NCBI GenBank assembly: GCA_030549955.1
Contig: JAUQQI010000259.1
Span: 1-10,472, forward strand
Source of the DNA: Chloroflexota bacterium
Lineage (GTDB): Bacteria; Chloroflexota; Dehalococcoidia; JAUQQI01
DNA length: 10,472 nt
Direction of reading: 5' to 3'
Shown here: positions 1,801-9,975 of the stretch, one piece after another
Layout of the letters: each line of letters begins with the position of its first letter
Numbering within the stretch: position 1 is the first letter of the stretch
Position numbers and translations under genes: made by a program
Notes under the pieces: generated by a model
Told to the model about the DNA's origin: nothing
Database searches by the model: none
What the model saw: only the letters and a program-made list of their open reading frames with translations

Positions 1801-1950
1801 ATGAGACGGCGAAAAATCGGCGCCACCGGCAGGCTGAAGTGGGAGCTGCTCTGGTGGCTCCTGCTGGCCTGGCGGGCCGTCAACCGGCTTGGGCGGCGGC
1901 TCGGATTCCGGCCAGACGGCCCGCCTAAACCTCCCGAATCCGCACGGTAA
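1801..1950 (+). CDS. Possible small basic membrane-associated protein (49 residues)
   Basis: The frame opens at ATG 1801 and closes with TAA at 1948-1950. It encodes a cationic N-terminus (MRRRK), a Trp/Leu-rich hydrophobic stretch (WELLWWLLLAWRAV, residues 14-27), a second arginine cluster and a proline-rich tail. This layout is typical of a small membrane-binding protein. There is no properly spaced Shine-Dalgarno: GGTAGG abuts the ATG. A TATAAC lies at 1788-1793 inside an inverted repeat (CCGGT 1782-1786, ACCGG 1792-1796), seven bases before the ATG, which could allow leaderless expression. The last 26 bases run antisense to the end of the sulfite-oxidase-type gene. I do not recognise the family, and in GC-rich DNA an ORF of this size may be chance. 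Confidence 0.25.
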   Translation: MRRRKIGATGRLKWELLWWLLLAWRAVNRLGRRLGFRPDGPPKPPESAR

Positions 1951-3433
1951 TGCTGTGGTAGCCTGACGCCCCGTCAGGGAGGGGCGGCCGCGGGGTGGCG
2001 TCCTGAAGCTGGCCCGAACCATCCACGGCCCGGACTACGACCCGGTAGCTGCCGGGCGGCGGGTTCCATTCGGCCACCCAGAGAACCCAGCTGTAGCGGG
2101 AAAGGGCCGGCCGCAGCTCGGCCGGCCGCCACGTCCGCCCACCGTCAAAACTTAGTTCAACCCGCAGGATGCCCCGGTCGCCGGCAAAGGCCACGCCCCC
2201 GAGGCGGACCGGACCCGGCGTCCGGACGGCCAGGGTCCGGCTCGGGACGATGACCTCCGACATCGTCTTGATGACGGCCTGGTCGCTCCAGCCGCGCTGT
2301 TCCCAGAAGCCCAGGTAGTCGTAGTCGACCGCCTCGACGGCCGTGACCCACTTCGGGTTCTTCATTCCGTACAGCCCGGGGGTCACGAGGCGGACGGGGA
2401 ATCCGTGCTTGTGGGGCAGGGGCTCGCCGTTCATCTCATAGGCCAGGATTGTGCTGGGGTGGACGGCTCTGTCCACCGGTATCGCCGTTGAATAGTCGTC
2501 CCAGGCCCGGACAATGACTTTTCGGGCCTCTGGCCGCAGTCCGGCCTGCTCGAGCAGATAGGCCAGGGGCACGCCGCGCCATCGGGCCGTGCTGATGAGG
2601 TCGCCCCCGACCTCGTTGCTTATGCACTCAAAAGTAACGATTTCTTCCCTGGCCGGCAGACGCCGGAGGTCGTCATAGGCCAGGGAAAGGGGCCGGTCAA
2701 CAAGGCCCCGGATTTCGAGCCGCCACCGGGCCAGGTCAACGGTCGGGTCGACGACGTTCTTTGAGACCACGTAAAACCGGTCGTTCGGGGTGATTTCCGG
2801 GGGCATCGACTCTTCCGGAGTGAGGGGAATAACAAACCCAGCTCTGGTCTGACTGCCCGCCGGATTCAGCAGCCGCAAGACCACGCCCCCGGCCGCCACC
2901 AGGACGGCCCCGGCCCCAACCCCGACCAGGAGCCGCCGGCCGGGGTCAAAGCCGGCGCCGCCCGGCAAACTAATAAGCCGCCAGGCGAGGGTCAGGCCCA
3001 GGCCGTAGGCGAGGCAGAGGGCCAGGAGTCCCGGTCCGACCGCGGCCGGGCCGCCGGTCAGGCTTGCCCCGAAAAGCCCGGCGCCAAGCAGGGGAAGAAC
3101 GACACCCCCGAGAATTAGCCAGCCGGCAATACCCACCCCAAGGCCCCTGGCGAGAGAACCCACCGGGCCTAGAGCAAGGCCGGCCAGGCCCCCGACCCCG
3201 GCCAGGACAAAAAGTAACCCGACGTAAAAGACGACCTTGGCCCAGCCCCCCAACAGGCGTATTCCCAGGGAAAAGAGGTCCATCGGAACCAGGAACAGAA
3301 GCCGGTCAATAAGGACGTCGGCGAGGGTAACGAGCCCGAAGGCAAGCTTCAGGAAAAGGATGACCGCGGCCCCGGCGAGGCCCCCCAATACGCCGGCCCC
3401 GAATCGCCAGCGCCTGTCCGCCTGCGTGTCCAT
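1925..3433 (-). CDS. Membrane-anchored sulfite-oxidase-family molybdopterin oxidoreductase
   Basis: The 502-residue protein has two parts. Residues 1-190 are hydrophobic, with about five membrane segments (roughly 11-35, 65-90, 98-122, 130-155, 168-189), placing the rest outside the cytoplasm if the N-terminus is inside. Residues 200-375 are the sulfite oxidase molybdopterin domain. The molybdenum-ligand cysteine is C270 in the segment FECISNEVGGDLISTARW, and the cofactor-binding run KHGFPVRLVTPGLYGMKNP is at 342-360. Residues 390-500 form the Ig-like Mo-co dimerisation domain (ELSFDGGRTW). No heme or signal-peptide cleavage site is visible, so electrons would pass to an unseen partner. Sulfite oxidation is one option; protein methionine-sulfoxide or other oxo-transfer is also possible. 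ATG 3433 has a GAGGGGG Shine-Dalgarno. Confidence 0.88.
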   Translation of the reverse strand: MDTQADRRWRFGAGVLGGLAGAAVILFLKLAFGLVTLADVLIDRLLFLVPMDLFSLGIRLLGGWAKVVFYVGLLFVLAGVGGLAGLALGPVGSLARGLGVGIAGWLILGGVVLPLLGAGLFGASLTGGPAAVGPGLLALCLAYGLGLTLAWRLISLPGGAGFDPGRRLLVGVGAGAVLVAAGGVVLRLLNPAGSQTRAGFVIPLTPEESMPPEITPNDRFYVVSKNVVDPTVDLARWRLEIRGLVDRPLSLAYDDLRRLPAREEIVTFECISNEVGGDLISTARWRGVPLAYLLEQAGLRPEARKVIVRAWDDYSTAIPVDRAVHPSTILAYEMNGEPLPHKHGFPVRLVTPGLYGMKNPKWVTAVEAVDYDYLGFWEQRGWSDQAVIKTMSEVIVPSRTLAVRTPGPVRLGGVAFAGDRGILRVELSFDGGRTWRPAELRPALSRYSWVLWVAEWNPPPGSYRVVVRAVDGSGQLQDATPRPPLPDGASGYHSITVRIREV

Positions 3434-3509: not shown

Positions 3510-3950
3510 ATGGCCAGAAAGCGCAGGCGACGGAAGGCCGCTGCCCCGCCTGAACTTAAGTCACCCGACGGCCGGGTTGTATTTGCCCACATTGCCGAGG
3601 CCGAATTCGCCCGCCTGCTCGACTTTTACCAGATAAAGTGGGAGTATGAGCCCCGCTCCTTTCCCCTTCGCTGGGACGAAGAGGGCCGGCCTGTCCAGAG
3701 TTTCACCCCCGACTTCTACCTGCCCGAGTTCGACCTTTATGTTGAGCTTACGACCCTCCGCCAGCGTCTGGTGACCCGGAAAAATCAAAAGCTTCGCCGG
3801 CTTCGGGAGCTTTACCCCTGGGTCAATATTCGCCTGCTTTATGCTCGGGACGTGCGAAATCTCTTTTTAAAGTACGGCATTGCCGGCCTGCTCGGTTCGC
3901 CCTCGAGGAACGGTTCCGGGCCATCGGCCGGGAGGGCCGGGGATAATTAG
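3510..3950 (+). CDS. Uncharacterised protein with PD-(D/E)XK nuclease-like core
   Basis: This is a 146-residue protein of no name I recognise. After a very basic N-terminus (MARKRRRRK) it has an acidic helix (HIAEAEFARLLDFY, 27-40) and YEPRSFPL (46-53). Then comes FTPDFYLPEFDLYVELTT (65-82), followed by a basic helix (VTRKNQKLRRLRELYP, 88-103) and a strand plus helix (INIRLLY-like, 106-111). The spacing of E32, P67-D68 and E79 matches restriction-endonuclease-like PD-(D/E)XK folds of the Vsr/DUF559 type. The usual E-x-K is E-L-T here, so K91 or K94 might replace the lysine or the protein may be catalytically dead. The last 20 residues are low-complexity. It starts at ATG 3510 close behind GGGGGA and precedes hpt by 23 bases, so it is probably co-transcribed with it. 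Confidence 0.75.
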   Translation: MARKRRRRKAAAPPELKSPDGRVVFAHIAEAEFARLLDFYQIKWEYEPRSFPLRWDEEGRPVQSFTPDFYLPEFDLYVELTTLRQRLVTRKNQKLRRLRELYPWVNIRLLYARDVRNLFLKYGIAGLLGSPSRNGSGPSAGRAGDN

Positions 3951-4557: not shown

Positions 4558-5115
4558 ATGCCGCTTTCTCAGCTTGAGGTTCTGGGCGTCCTGCTGACCA
4601 CCCTCCTGGTTCGACTGGCAATCAGCCTCGTCATCGTCGGGGTCGCTTATCTTTTCGTCAGCAGGGTTCCGGGTCTGATTGACCGGCTCCTGAGCCGCAC
4701 CGGGGCCGAACCGAACGCCCGGGTGCTTCTCAGTCGGGTCACTCAGGTTGGGCTCTGGCTCGTGGCCGGCATCACCATCCTCGGTGTCTGGGGTATTGAG
4801 CTCGGGGCCCTGGCCGCCGGCGTCGGGCTCTTCAGCCTGGCCATCTCCATCGCCCTCCAGGACGTCCTCCGGAACTGGGTCGTCGGCCTCTATCTCCTGA
4901 TCGAGCGGCCCTTCCGAATCGGGGACCGGGTGCTGCTGAAAGATAGCCAGGGGGTCATCGAAGACGTCCAGCTCCGGGTTACCCGGATCCGGGCGGACGA
5001 CGGCCGCCTCATCTACATCCCCAACCTGACGGTTTTCAACGAGATAATCGCCGTGCTCCCGCCCGGCTCGGGCCGGCAAGCGGTCAAGCCGGAAGAGTCG
5101 ACCGGTCCGGGTTAA
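4558..5115 (+). CDS. Short MscS-family mechanosensitive ion channel
   Basis: This 185-residue inner-membrane protein belongs to the MscS superfamily, which opens under membrane tension to release solutes on hypo-osmotic shock. Membrane segments lie at about 8-35, 60-78 and 82-115. The last is the pore-lining TM3 (GALAAGVGLFSLAISIALQD), followed by the conserved RNWVVGLYLLIERPFRIGD (105-123). The beta domain (GVIEDVQLRVTRIRADDG, IPNLTVFNEII) ends near 165. The protein is much shorter than E. coli MscS (286 residues): the C-terminal alpha/beta vestibule domain is missing and replaced by a short polar tail. The ATG 4558 has GAGGGGG at a good distance. The TAA stop overlaps the stop codon of the convergent selD. 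Confidence 0.88.
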   Translation: MPLSQLEVLGVLLTTLLVRLAISLVIVGVAYLFVSRVPGLIDRLLSRTGAEPNARVLLSRVTQVGLWLVAGITILGVWGIELGALAAGVGLFSLAISIALQDVLRNWVVGLYLLIERPFRIGDRVLLKDSQGVIEDVQLRVTRIRADDGRLIYIPNLTVFNEIIAVLPPGSGRQAVKPEESTGPG

Positions 5116-6194
5116 GGCCGTCGGCGGACCCGCACCGCGGCCCCGGCAGCTTCGGCCGGCGCGAGAAACCGCCCCACCTCCCAGGCGGGCACACCCCGCC
5201 GGGCCAGGGCAGCTTTAAGGGCCCCGGCCCGCTCCGGGGTCACGGCGATAAGCATGCCCCCCGACGTCTGGGCATCGGCCAGAATAAGCTTTTCGGCCTC
5301 GGCAAAGCTGTCTTCCCAGTCCACCCGGAGCCGGCCGCTCTTCTCCCGTCCCGAGAGGAAGGCCAGGTTCCGCCGGGTGCCCCCGGGCACCACCCCGGCC
5401 CCGGCCAGCTCCCGGACCGCCGGCATAAGGGGGACTGCCTCGAAGTAGACCTCGGCCCCGAGGGCCCGCTCCCGAACCATCTCGTAAAGGTGACCCAGCA
5501 GGCCGTAGCCGGTGACGTCGGTTGCGGCCCGGACGCCCACTTCGACCATGGCCAGGGAGGCATCCCGGTTGAGGGTCAGCATCCAGCGGACGGCCTCGGC
5601 CACGGCCTCGGGCGGGGCAGCCTCCCGCTTGATGGCCGTCGAGATGATACCGGTCCCCACGGGTTTCGTCAGAAAGAGCCGGTTCCCGGGCTCGGCTGCG
5701 TCCTTGGTGATGACCCCTTCAGGATGGACGATCCCGGTTACGACCAGGCCATACTTGGGCTCGGGGTCATCAATCGAATGCCCGCCTATAATCGGGACCC
5801 CGGCCTCCCGGGCCTTGTCGGCCCCACCCCGCAGAATCTCGACAAGGGTTTCCCGGGGCAGGGTATTGACCGGGAACCCGATAATATTCAGGGCGAACAG
5901 GGGCCGGGCCCCCATCGCGTAGATGTCGCTCAAGGCATTGGCGGCCGCGATGCTCCCGAAAAGGTACGGGTCGTCGACAATGGGCGTGAAGAAATCAACC
6001 GTCTGGATCACCGCCAGCTCGTCCGAAAGACGGTATACGCCCGCATCGTCCGGCCGGTCAAGGCCGACCAGGACATTCGGGTCCGCATAGAACGGCACGC
6101 GGCTCAGGACCTCCCCGAGGTCCTCGGGCGAAAGCTTACAAGCTCAGCCGGCGCCGTGGGAAAGGGTTGTGAGCCGGATCTTCTGACGGTCCAC
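5112..6194 (-). CDS. selD: Selenide, water dikinase (selenophosphate synthetase), selenocysteine-containing
   Basis: SelD makes selenophosphate, the selenium donor for selenocysteine and selenouridine synthesis, from selenide and ATP. The uninterrupted frame begins only at 6098, which would lack the catalytic N-terminus. Reading upstream in the same frame to GTG 6194 gives VDRQKIRLTTLSHGAG-TGA-ACKLSPEDL. The TGA (6146-6144) is codon 17, the position of catalytic Cys17 in E. coli SelD, with C19 and essential K20 following. An upstream in-frame TGA (6212-6210) limits the start, and GGTGG (6206-6202) serves as Shine-Dalgarno. The rest is canonical: VDFFTPIVDDPY and AAANALSDIYAMG near residues 65-90, GGHSID, TDVTGYGLLGH, and DAQTSGGML near the end. 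Full length is 360 residues with Sec, normal for the family. It follows cysM by four bases, as last gene of the operon. Confidence 0.93.
6106..6124 (-). promoter_or_regulatory. Candidate bacterial SECIS hairpin in selD
   Basis: On the minus strand AGGACCTC (6124-6117) pairs perfectly with GAGGTCCT (6113-6106) around a GGG loop. The loop begins 27 bases after the in-frame TGA at 6146-6144. Bacterial SECIS elements lie within the coding region just downstream of UGA, typically with about 16-37 bases to a small apical loop that carries G in its first two positions. This hairpin meets those rules. It would recruit SelB with Sec-tRNA to read UGA as selenocysteine. No folding energy was computed. 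Confidence 0.75.
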
Positions 6195-6198
6195 TAAA

Positions 6199-7131
6199 TT
6201 ACCACCAGATCACTTTTTCGGCGGCTTCTTCGAGCTCCTCCACCGGGGTCGTCCAGACCCCGCTCGATAGATACTTCCAGCCGCCGTCGGCGAAGAGCAC
6301 AACGATGTTTCCTCTGGTCAGCCGTTCGGCGTACCTGAGGGCGGCGTAGAGGGCGGCCCCGGATGAGATCCCGGCGAAGATGCCTTCCCGCCGGAGCAGC
6401 TCCCGGGTCAGCCGGAAGGAGTCGATGGCCCGGACCAGAATTTTGCCGTCGAGGAGGTTCAGGTCGAGAATCGGGGGCACAAACCCCTCCTCCAGGCTTC
6501 GGAGGCCCTGAACCTGTTCGCCCGGGTGGGGCTCGGCGGCGACAACCCGGATGTTCGGATTGTATTCTTTAAGGCGGCGGCCAACCCCCATCAGGGTTCC
6601 GCCGGTTCCCAGGCCCGCCACGAAGACGTCTACATCCGGCAAATCTGCCAGGATCTCAGGACCGGTCGTCTCGTAGTGGGCGAGGGGATTTGCCAGGTTG
6701 CCGTATTGGTACGGCATGAAATACTGTGGGTCCTCGGCCATCCTGAGGGCGACCTCGATGGACCCGTTTGTCCCCCGCCGGCCCTCGGTCAGGACGATTT
6801 CGGCCCCGAAGGCCTCGAGGACCTGGCGGCGCTCGACGCTGACGTTCTCGGGCATGACAACCTTGAGGCGGTAACCCTTAACCCGGCAGACCATCGCCAG
6901 GGAGATCCCCGTGTTTCCGCTCGTCGGTTCAAGGACGGTTTTGTCGGGCGTGAGCTTGCCTTCGGCCTCGGCCCGCTCAATCATGTATTTGGCGATCCGG
7001 TCCTTGACGCTGCCCGAAGGGTTGTGTCCCTCAAGCTTTGCGAAGATCCGGACGCCTTCTTTCGGCCGGAAGTGCTTGAGCTCTACCAGCGGTGTGCGGC
7101 CGATGGCCGCCAGGATGTCATCGAAGCGCAT
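6199..7131 (-). CDS. cysM: CysM-type cysteine synthase (sulfur-carrier thiocarboxylate dependent)
   Basis: The 310-residue PLP enzyme resembles Mycobacterium CysM, which joins O-phosphoserine-derived aminoacrylate with sulfur from CysO-thiocarboxylate to make cysteine. The PLP lysine is K43 in NPSGSVKDR, the substrate loop [12 protein letters not shown] is 69-80, the phosphate-binding loop GLGTGGTLMG is 173-182, and GIFAGISSGA is 250-259. R211 in GLRSLEEGFVP sits where the M. tuberculosis enzyme has R220, implicated in phosphoserine choice, and the CysM-like end ADGGWKYLSSG is present at 281-291. The correct start is ATG 7131, preceded by GGAGG at eight bases; a longer open frame reaching to 7227 overlaps cysO and has no homologous sequence. 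It overlaps the cysO stop by 14 bases and precedes selD by four. Confidence 0.92.
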   Translation of the reverse strand: MRFDDILAAIGRTPLVELKHFRPKEGVRIFAKLEGHNPSGSVKDRIAKYMIERAEAEGKLTPDKTVLEPTSGNTGISLAMVCRVKGYRLKVVMPENVSVERRQVLEAFGAEIVLTEGRRGTNGSIEVALRMAEDPQYFMPYQYGNLANPLAHYETTGPEILADLPDVDVFVAGLGTGGTLMGVGRRLKEYNPNIRVVAAEPHPGEQVQGLRSLEEGFVPPILDLNLLDGKILVRAIDSFRLTRELLRREGIFAGISSGAALYAALRYAERLTRGNIVVLFADGGWKYLSSGVWTTPVEELEEAAEKVIWW

Positions 7132-7411
7132 GGATGCCCCCTCCAGCCAGGGCCGGGAGGATGGAGATGATATCGCCGTCCCGGGCGGGGGTCTCCAACC
7201 GCTGGAGGAACCGGATGTCTTCGTCATTTAGATAGATATTGATGTGCCGGCGGACCTGGCCGTCCTCGTCGAGGAGAAGCTTCTTCACGCCCGGGAACTC
7301 CTGGTCCAGCCGGTCGAGAATTTCCCCAACTGTCCGGCCCTCGACCCTGAGGACCTTCTGGCCGCCGACCACCGACTGGAGGATCGCCGGAACCCGAACC
7401 TCAACTGCCAT
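7118..7411 (-). CDS. cysO: CysO-type ubiquitin-like sulfur carrier protein
   Basis: The 97-residue beta-grasp protein of the MoaD/ThiS family closely follows the pattern of mycobacterial CysO. It has VPAILQSVVGGQK at 7-19, GEILDRLDQEFPG at 29-41, HINIYLNDEDIRF at 56-68 and DGDIISILPALAGG at 78-91. The carrier is adenylated and thiocarboxylated at its C-terminal glycine by an E1-like enzyme and passes sulfur to CysM, encoded next. The C-terminus does not end at Gly-Gly: GIHALR follows, coded inside the overlap with the cysM start. A Mec+-like metalloprotease would have to trim it. ATG 7411 has GGAGA seven bases ahead. It lies 22 bases after the E1 fusion gene. Molybdopterin MoaD is the alternative, less likely next to CysM. 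Confidence 0.88.
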   Translation of the reverse strand: MAVEVRVPAILQSVVGGQKVLRVEGRTVGEILDRLDQEFPGVKKLLLDEDGQVRRHINIYLNDEDIRFLQRLETPARDGDIISILPALAGGGIHALR

Positions 7412-7433: not shown

Positions 7434-8564
7434 TTAACTCTGGGCCAGCACGGGCACGCCGCAGAAGGCCTCGTAGTCGATAAGCTGGGTAATAGTCGGG
7501 TTGTCCCCGCAGACCGGGCAGTTGGGATTGCGCCGGAGCTTCACGGTCCGGAAGTCCATGGCCAGGGTATCAATGAGGAGGAGCCGCCCGGCCAGCGACT
7601 CACCCAGCTCGAGGATCAGCTTGATGACCTCAGTTGCCTGGATGGCCCCGACCAGCCCGGTCACGACCCCAAACACCCCGGCCTCAGCGCAGTTGGGAAC
7701 CGCCCCCGGGGGCGGCGGAGCCGGATACAGGCAGCGGTAGCACCCCTGCCCGGGCAGGAAAACCGTCACCTGGGCGTCGAACTTGAAGACGCTGGCATCC
7801 ACCAGCGGCTTCCTCAGAAAGACACAGGCATCGTTCACCAGGTAGCGGGTCGGGAAGTTGTCGGACCCGTTCAGCACCACGTCATAATCTTTGATTATGT
7901 CAAGGGCATTGGCCGAGGTCAGGGCAGTGTTGTAGGGCACGACCTCGACGTCGGGGTTGATGCGGCGGACCGTGTCCCGGGCGGATTCGACCTTCGGCCG
8001 GCCGATGGCATCCGTCGTATGGATGACCTGGCGCTGCAGGTTTGAGAGGTCAACGACGTCGAAATCGACGACCCCGATCCGGCCGACCCCGGCCGCCGCC
8101 AGGTAAAGGATGGCCGGGGCCCCGAGGCCCCCCGCGCCGATGACGAGGACACTCGAGCTCAGGAGCTTGCGCTGGCCGGTGCCCCCGATCTCCGGCATGA
8201 TCATGTGCCGGCTGTAGCGGATCACCTGCTCAGGGGTCAGCCGAACCAGCTTCTCCCGGGCCGGGGCGGCCGGCGCCCCGTCGGCACCCCCGGCGAGGGC
8301 CGGAACGACCGCAATCTCATCCCCGTCCCGGACCTGGGTGTTGGGACCGGCCAGGTCTTCGATCTCCTGGTTGTTGACGTAGACGTTGACGTAGCGGCGG
8401 AGCTGGCCGGCCTCGTCAAAGAGCTCCGCGCGCAGGCCGGGGAAACGGGCCGAGAGCCGGTCGAGGGCCTCGGCCACGTCCCGGGCCTCGACCTCAACCC
8501 GGGCCAGGTTGCCCGTGAATCGCCTGAGCGGCGTTCCGATATAGACGCGAACCGGCATCTTCAC
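7434..8564 (-). CDS. Fusion of CysO/MoaD-like sulfur carrier with MoeB/ThiF-type E1 activating enzyme
   Basis: Numbering here counts from ATG 8570. Residues 6-95 are a beta-grasp sulfur carrier ending in ALAGG (91-95), like the free CysO encoded next. After an Ala/Pro linker (96-105), residues 108-378 form an E1-like adenylating domain: RYSRHMIMPEIG (118-129), the ATP-binding VIGAGGLGAP (143-152), VDFDVVDLSNLQRQ (168-181), NGSDNFPTRYLVND (234-247), a zinc site from C277, C280, C351 and C354, and the family cysteine C294 in NCAEAGVFG. The E1 part resembles mycobacterial MoeZ but lacks the C-terminal rhodanese, so sulfur must come from elsewhere. GGAGG (8575-8571) abuts ATG 8570, and GTG 8564 has the best spacing; ATG 8558 is also possible. 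Likely role: activating carriers for CysM. Confidence 0.88.
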   Translation of the reverse strand: MKMPVRVYIGTPLRRFTGNLARVEVEARDVAEALDRLSARFPGLRAELFDEAGQLRRYVNVYVNNQEIEDLAGPNTQVRDGDEIAVVPALAGGADGAPAAPAREKLVRLTPEQVIRYSRHMIMPEIGGTGQRKLLSSSVLVIGAGGLGAPAILYLAAAGVGRIGVVDFDVVDLSNLQRQVIHTTDAIGRPKVESARDTVRRINPDVEVVPYNTALTSANALDIIKDYDVVLNGSDNFPTRYLVNDACVFLRKPLVDASVFKFDAQVTVFLPGQGCYRCLYPAPPPPGAVPNCAEAGVFGVVTGLVGAIQATEVIKLILELGESLAGRLLLIDTLAMDFRTVKLRRNPNCPVCGDNPTITQLIDYEAFCGVPVLAQS

Positions 8565-8580
8565 CATCATCCTCCGTCAG

Positions 8581-9522
8581 TCAAAATGGCATTGTCAGGT
8601 AGCGTTCGCCGGTATCCGGCAGGACCGTAACGACCACCTTGCCCGCCCCGAGCCGCTCGGCGACCTGGAGGGCGGCAAAGACGTTGGCCCCGGAAGAGAC
8701 GCCTACCAGCAGGCCCTCCTCCCGGGTGAGCCGGGCGGCCGTGGCGATAGCGTCCTCGTCCCGGACGTGAATGAGCTCGTCGATAACCTTCCGGTTGAGC
8801 ACGCCCGGCACGAAGCTGGCACCCAGGCCCTGGATGGCGTGGGGCCGGAACTTTCCCCCAGCCAGGACCGGCGCCCGGGCCGGCTCGACCCCCACCACCA
8901 GGACCCCGGGCACTTCCTGTTTGAGGACTTCCCCGACCCCCGTAATGGTTCCGCCGGTTCCGATACCGATGACGACGGCATCAACCCGGCCGTCGGTGGC
9001 CTCGAGAATCTCCCGGGCCGTGGTTTGCCGGTGGATTTCGGGGTTTGCCGGGTTCTCGAACTGCTGGGGCATAAAATAGCCGTGCTTGGCGACCAGTTCC
9101 TGAGCCGCGTAAACGGCCCCGGTCATGCCTTCGATGGCCGGGGTAAGAACGATCTCCGCCCCGAACCGCTGAAGGAGCCGGCGGCGTTCGATGCTCATAT
9201 CCTCCGGCATCGTCAGAATCAGCCGGTAACCTTTGACGGCCGCAACCATCGCCAGTCCGATGCCGGTGTTGCCGCTGGTCGGCTCGACGATGGTGTCACC
9301 CGGCTTGAGAATGCCGGCCCGTTCGGCCGCCTCAACCATCGCAAGGGCGATCCGGTCCTTGACGCTCCCGGCCGGGTTCAGGGACTCAAGCTTGGCGTAG
9401 ATGGTCGCCGAGCCGGGTTTTGGGAGCCGGTTGAGCCGGACCATCGGCGTGTTTCCGATCAGGTCCAGCACGCTGTCCGCCACCTTCGGACGGGTCGAAG
9501 CCTTACGGATAGTCCTGGCCAC
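8581..9522 (-). CDS. cysK: Cysteine synthase A (O-acetylserine sulfhydrylase)
   Basis: The 313-residue cytoplasmic PLP enzyme makes cysteine from O-acetylserine and sulfide. The PLP lysine is K55 in [11 protein letters not shown], the substrate loop [12 protein letters not shown] is 81-92, the phosphate-binding loop [12 protein letters not shown] is 186-197, and [12 protein letters not shown] is 274-285. The ending [12 protein letters not shown] is typical of CysK rather than CysM and length is normal. The start is GTG 9522 with AAGGAG five bases upstream. It follows the Rrf2 gene by 15 bases and precedes the carrier-E1 fusion by about 16. It is therefore a second cysteine synthase in the same operon as cysM, probably the free-sulfide branch. 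Confidence 0.95.
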
Positions 9523-9537
9523 CGCAACTCCTTGAGC

Positions 9538-9975
9538 CTAAATGTGATACATGACCCGGACTTCGGCCTGCTCCTCCCGCTCCAGCAGGTCCTGAATGGT
9601 TACCGACTCCAGGACCCGCCGGGTCATCGTCCGGATTTCCTGCCAGACCGACCGCTGGCCGCACCGCTCCGAGAGCTGACAGGCCCCTATATCCTCCAGA
9701 CAGTCGAGGACCGTGATATTCCCTTCCAGGGCCGCGATTACCTCGCCCATTGTTATCTGGGTCGGGGGCCGAACCAGCATGTGCCCGCCCTGGGGGCCCC
9801 GAATGCTCCGGATTAGCCCGGCCTTGCGCAGGACCGTAAGGAGCTGGTCAAGGTAAGGCTCGGGGATGAGCTGGCGGGCCGCAATCTCGCTGGTCTGGAC
9901 CGGGCCCTCCCCGTAGTGACGGGCAAGGTCCACCATCGCCCGGATGCCGTAGTCGGCTTTCATTGAAATGCGCAT
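9538..9975 (-). CDS. Rrf2-family transcriptional regulator, likely Fe-S binding
   Basis: The 145-residue protein begins with the Rrf2 signature MRISMKADYGIRAMVDLA. A winged helix-turn-helix follows: helices in TSEIAARQLIPEPYLDQLL (28-46) and the wing RGPQGGHML (59-67). Three cysteines, C92, C99 and C105, lie in the C-terminal loop, close to the IscR [2Fe-2S] ligands (C92, C98, C104 in E. coli) but with one extra residue between the first pair. CymR-type cysteine regulators lack this cluster, so this one probably senses iron-sulfur, redox or sulfur state. It is first gene of the cysK-cysM-selD operon and likely autoregulates it. ATG 9975 is preferred over ATG 9963 because it keeps the MRIS start. 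Confidence 0.92.
   Translation of the reverse strand: MRISMKADYGIRAMVDLARHYGEGPVQTSEIAARQLIPEPYLDQLLTVLRKAGLIRSIRGPQGGHMLVRPPTQITMGEVIAALEGNITVLDCLEDIGACQLSERCGQRSVWQEIRTMTRRVLESVTIQDLLEREEQAEVRVMYHI

Follow-up and report, generated by a model that had tools for sequence, protein, structure and literature searches.

The selD gene of the 10,472-nucleotide stretch analysed here (the window, a contig from a Chloroflexota genome of the class Dehalococcoidia) almost certainly encodes an authentic selenocysteine (Sec)-containing selenophosphate synthetase, SelD, in which the UGA at codon 17 is read as Sec. The evidence comes from the reading frame and its alignment to solved SelD proteins, from the same codon in related genomes, and from the genes for Sec decoding in the genome itself. 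The features are collected in Table 1.

A selD frame crossed by a single TGA

On the minus strand, the selD frame runs from GTG 6194–6192 to 5112, and the sole stop inside it is TGA 6146–6144, codon 17, which lies within S-H-G-A-G-U-A-C-K. With TGA translated as U, the frame gives 360 aa and has no other stop. Plain ORF calling (table 11) starts selD at GTG 6098 and returns 328 aa, losing the first 32 codons. Both points agree with an earlier reading of this DNA made from the sequence only, which had noticed that the ORF from 6098 lacks the catalytic N-terminus and that an extension to GTG 6194 crosses one TGA in SHGAG-U-ACK.

The protein translated with TGA as Sec scores 391.7 bits against TIGR00476 (cut-off 125) and 385.4 bits against NF002098 (cut-off 299), stays under the cut-off of a third SelD model (NF010705; 193.4 bits, cut-off 291), and contains both AIRS domains (PF00586 and PF02769). 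The two best solved SelD chains are 3u0o and 2yye, and positions 17 and 20 of the window protein fall on their Cys and Lys. The alignment to 3u0o, which we take to be E. coli SelD, spans residues 4–357 and places U17 on Cys17 and K20 on Lys20, so that the protein has the Cys or Sec at 17 and the Lys at 20 by which a SelD is recognised. The sequence-only reading had matched U17 and K20 to these catalytic residues of the E. coli enzyme, and the alignment bears this out.

A start at GTG 6098, as plain ORF calling has it, would yield a truncated SelD missing its catalytic N-terminus and with it residues 17 and 20, both of which align with solved SelD. Relatives are recognisably SelD in the stretch that includes codon 17 and begins near codon 8. 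Furthermore, GTG 6194 sits only 4 nt past the TAA of the upstream cysteine synthase gene, a spacing that would fit translational coupling. We regard initiation at 6098 as extremely improbable. The annotation of selD is corrected accordingly, with the true start at 6194 and Sec as residue 17.

Table 1. Positions of the selD gene, its signals and its neighbours in the window
Feature	Position	Strand	Basis
selD, selenide water dikinase	5112..6194	minus	GTG to TAA, 360 aa; a single in-frame TGA translated as Sec
UGA for Sec at codon 17, the catalytic position	6144..6146	minus	Aligned with Cys17 of 3u0o; TGA in 30/30 class loci read, own included
Catalytic motif SHGAGUACK, codons 12–20, with Lys20	6135..6161	minus	Translated frame and alignment to solved SelD
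Candidate bSECIS hairpin, 8-bp form, loop GGG, 27 nt after UGA	6106–6124	minus	Fits the model quoted by PMC13188914
Candidate bSECIS hairpin, 7-bp form, loop AGG, 31 nt after UGA	6103–6119	minus	Folding
CysM-like cysteine synthase, the gene just before selD	6199..7227	minus	TIGR01136 cysKM 362 bits, over cut-off; PF00291
MoaD/ThiS-type sulfur carrier	7118..7411	minus	NF041918 and TIGR01687 over cut-off
MoaD–MoeB/ThiF fusion, carrier and activating enzyme	7434..8570	minus	PF02597 and PF00899 in one ORF
Cysteine synthase CysK	8581..9522	minus	TIGR01139 442.9 bits, over cut-off
Rrf2-family regulator, CymR-like	9538..9975	minus	TIGR00738 over cut-off; NF047409 CymR 126.7 bits, under cut-off 195

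Codon 17 in related genomes

We surveyed 60 genomes, the window's own and 59 others of the same class, counting as SelD-scale any match with E below 1e-70; the next match down stood at 5.4e-22. Thirty-five of the 60 genomes gave 36 SelD-scale matches. A single TGA lies within 35 of these; the exception, the match of genome G030, has no internal stop. Another related genome, G006, has two such matches, each with an in-frame TGA. Weaker matches were all that the other 25 genomes gave; judged by size and coverage, many of these are probably other AIRS proteins. Codon 17 was read in the 30 of the 36 matches that were available as loci, the window among them, and is TGA in all 30. The in-frame TGA of selD is not due to chance, because the N-terminus around it aligns with solved SelD and the same codon is TGA in every class locus read.

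A second set of loci was formed by the best 80 of 560 loci encoding a relative, a choice biased towards close matches and towards the patterns used. The 110 loci were examined together; L047 does not reach codon 17, leaving 109 assigned loci, in which five are counted twice. Codon 17 in this collection is TGA at 92 loci, TGC at 11 and TGT at 6, so that the in-frame TGA aligns with Cys of homologues (92 TGA against 17 Cys codons), the pattern by which a selenoprotein gene is recognised. The exchange of Cys and Sec at position 17 that had been claimed for the SelD family is found at these loci. In many relatives (L111–L134) the SHGAG-U-ACK motif varies, for example to CAGUAAK; the His and the second Cys are lost, and U17 and K20 are kept.

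These counts also bear on whether the TGA replaces a Cys codon, through faulty sequencing or a recent nonsense mutation, which would make the gene a Cys-SelD or a pseudogene. One base change turns TGC or TGT into TGA, and Cys forms do occur at 17 of the 109 assigned loci. Against this, codon 17 is TGA in 29 other class loci, each from a different genome, the remaining frame is intact, and the genome has the genes for Sec decoding along with another Sec-encoding gene (see below). We consider such an error or mutation very unlikely, and a Sec codon remains our reading of the TGA.

Selenocysteine machinery and a second selenoprotein gene

The genome to which the window belongs, as contig C291, measures 2.47 Mb in 334 contigs (82.36% complete, 4.24% contamination). 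The sequence-only reading had proposed that the host decodes UGA as Sec, and named the absence of selA, selB and selC as what would count against it; a search of the genome found all three. The selA gene lies on C317 (571.5 bits, cut-off 267.9), selB on C245 (347.1 bits, cut-off 242.25), and the gene for tRNA-Sec, selC, on C271 (79.2 bits, Rfam gathering 47), where ARAGORN reads the anticodon as TCA. The sole further match above the Rfam tRNA-Sec cut-off in the genome is tRNA-Ser by ARAGORN. The four genes selA, selB, selC and selD are on four different contigs, and since the bin is fragmented and carries 4.24% contamination, a foreign contig among them is possible.

The same reading had also expected more selenoproteins to be hidden in the genome, and one formate dehydrogenase alpha gene with an in-frame TGA came to light. 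Our search covered four families (AhpC-TSA, TusA, FlpD and molybdopterin oxidoreductases) and not the whole selenoproteome. Molybdopterin oxidoreductases gave 8 matches, of which one, on C27, contains an in-frame TGA; this match and one more are parts of the same gene. The C27 fragment is clipped by the contig start, reads ARI-U-HGPTVASLAATFGRGAMTN around the TGA, and scores 1300.7 bits against formate dehydrogenase-N alpha (cut-off 814.2). A hairpin with the loop GUU follows, 19 nt past the codon. In the other three families, the genome gave 9 AhpC-TSA matches and 1 TusA match with no stop within any matched stretch, and no FlpD match.

A TGA in purL on contig C2 was considered as a further Sec codon and rejected: the match that follows, 2811–3008, lies in a different frame, which makes a frameshift or a fault of the assembly likelier than Sec. 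At L007/L008 on this contig, purL seems to be broken by a frame change in the assembly.

The machinery also speaks to a general reassignment of UGA, for example to Trp or Cys, in which the codon would not be decoded as Sec. The genome has tRNA-Sec, SelA and SelB genes, and among the matched stretches listed an internal TGA is confined to selD, formate dehydrogenase and a single purL position, the last explained by the frame change; we give general reassignment a negligible probability. The gene content is that of a genome equipped to read UGA as Sec, with no fewer than two genes for selenoproteins, so that annotation ignoring Sec would cut genes short or break them apart.

A candidate bSECIS hairpin

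Two mutually exclusive hairpins, of 8 bp and 7 bp, can form within 6103..6124. The bSECIS model given in a 2026 review asks for a loop of 3–9 nt, a stem of 4–16 bp, a G among the first two nucleotides of the loop, a distance of 16–37 nt from the UGA and an energy of at most -7.5 kcal/mol (PMC13188914). The 8-bp hairpin of the window, with the loop GGG, a spacing of 27 nt and -13.1 kcal/mol, agrees with this model. The agreement weighs little, because 26% of 5000 synonymous shuffles have a stem as long in that register; 9% match the 7-bp hairpin in its register, and 7% have two registers of at least 7 bp. Tested alone, neither form of the window hairpin is distinguishable from synonymous-codon chance. 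The folding energy of the window gives z -0.78 against synonymous shuffles and z -0.60, -1.82, -2.64 and -0.68 against dinucleotide shuffles, varying with the stretch chosen.

At the level of the family, the signal is clearer. We compared folding energies at 103 of the 109 loci, leaving out stretches that were identical, contained N or lay too near the locus end; the mean z against synonymous shuffles is lower in Sec genes (-1.85, n=87) than in Cys genes (-0.53, n=16; Mann–Whitney p 0.0002). Registers were compared at 95 of the 109 loci, with stretches more than 90% identical also left out. The commonest register in Sec-selD genes places the loop some 33 nt past the UGA and has a stem of at least 5 bp in 53/80 Sec and 0/15 Cys genes; its stem averages 5.92 bp, compared with 2.70 bp for synonymous shuffles. 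The z of 20.9 obtained for this register is inflated, because the test ignores relatedness between the sequences; the contrast of 53/80 with 0/15 is more robust, albeit with few Cys genes behind it.

The window, itself one of the 80 Sec genes, has 2 bp in this commonest register and so is missing it. The register is not a defining feature, as 27/80 Sec genes do not have 5 bp there. A stem of at least 5 bp in the register of the window's 8-bp hairpin is found in 37/80 Sec and 2/15 Cys genes, hardly above synonymous shuffles (mean 4.42 vs 3.98 bp), and in the register of the 7-bp hairpin in 1/80 Sec genes, that one being the window. An RNA element after the UGA codon of the window is plausible, with its support at the level of the family only.

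selD at the end of a cysteine-gene cluster

All on the minus strand, the genes upstream of selD form a cluster in the order rrf2, cysK, moaD–moeB fusion, moaD, cysM and selD, with selD last. The cysteine synthase next to selD, over the cut-off of the joint cysKM model, scores 304 bits against TIGR01138 cysM, under the cut-off of this second model, and ATG 7134 is probably its start rather than the ATG 7227 of the ORF. The MoaD/ThiS–MoeB/ThiF fusion adjoins a second, free-standing carrier gene.

We compared these neighbours with 29 other class loci, mostly over about 1.5 kb of upstream flank, at E 1e-5. A same-strand cysteine synthase precedes selD in four of them (L113, L114, L117 and L126), its alignment ending about 20–90 bases before the approximate selD start, and L117 and L126 carry an rrf2 gene as well. 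L118, which is the same place as L098 counted twice, has a MoeB-like gene just upstream of selD. At the same threshold and within the same flank, 24 of the 29 loci show none of the window's neighbours. Of the 110 loci examined, leaving aside the window's own, 10 of the 109 others have any window neighbour gene at E 1e-10; for example, cysM and moaD lie about 1.7 kb upstream of selD at L025, and moeB, moaD and cysM lie downstream of selD in an uncultured actinobacterium (L066).

A selD gene ending a cysteine-synthase, sulfur-carrier and Rrf2/CymR-like cluster, partly shared with 4/29 related loci, is the less usual aspect of this window. In our literature search, no paper title among the matches listed describes a selD cluster with cysK and Rrf2/CymR. 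A precedent of another kind is the selD operon with Sec lyase of Enterococcus faecalis, mentioned in PMC13188914. Since selD comes last in a cluster of an Rrf2/CymR-like regulator, cysteine synthases and MoaD-type carriers, SelD might be under sulfur control, and in part of the class selenium activation might be wired to cysteine supply, with SelD maybe drawing selenide from the carrier/cysteine-synthase pathway. We offer this proposal tentatively and think it rather less probable than its absence; it gives a small testable idea on how selenium and sulfur use may be coordinated.

Two further ORFs of the window are described here for completeness. The ORF at 1925–3433 encodes, starting near residue 202, a molybdopterin domain resembling that of sulfite dehydrogenase, after sequence that looks membrane-spanning by eye. 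The 146-aa ORF at 3510–3950 has no Pfam match; by eye it resembles a PD-(D/E)XK-type nuclease.

Discussion

From what is established for these protein and RNA families, we infer how the gene would work in the cell. SelB and Sec-tRNA-Sec would read UGA codon 17 as selenocysteine, and a stem-loop just downstream of the UGA may help decoding. Sec17 and Lys20 would then serve in the synthesis of selenophosphate from ATP and selenide, and the selenophosphate would feed SelA, and hence the synthesis of SelD itself and of the selenoprotein formate dehydrogenase.

The Sec-SelD reported here is correct but ordinary, as nearly every related genome in which selD was found does likewise, and the underlying biology is already well established. 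The interest placed in it by the sequence-only reading was too high, because Sec-SelD is common. FdhA and SelD are described, in the text of PMC1794560 and PMC5029168, as the most widespread bacterial selenoproteins, and PMC4561486 describes the two forms of SelD, with Sec or with Cys, as equivalent in function. The word Chloroflexi is absent from the main text of PMC4561486, PMC5029168 and PMC13188914.

Compared with known systems, the window protein shares the SHGAG-x-x-C-K motif with the solved SelD 3u0o and differs from it in having Sec17 where 3u0o has Cys17. The Sec formate dehydrogenase-N alpha (FdnG/FdhA) of the same genome resembles selD in its in-frame TGA followed by a hairpin, but is another enzyme, encoded on C27 and cut at the contig start. 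Mycobacteria have carrier-dependent cysteine synthesis by CysO/CysM; the cluster of the window is alike but ends in selD. The closest counterpart is the Sec-containing bacterial SelD, with which the window shares Sec at the Cys17 position, Lys20, the AIRS domains and a host with SelA, SelB and tRNA-Sec; nothing essential differs, and the hairpin register of the window is not the one seen most often in the Sec-selD genes under comparison.
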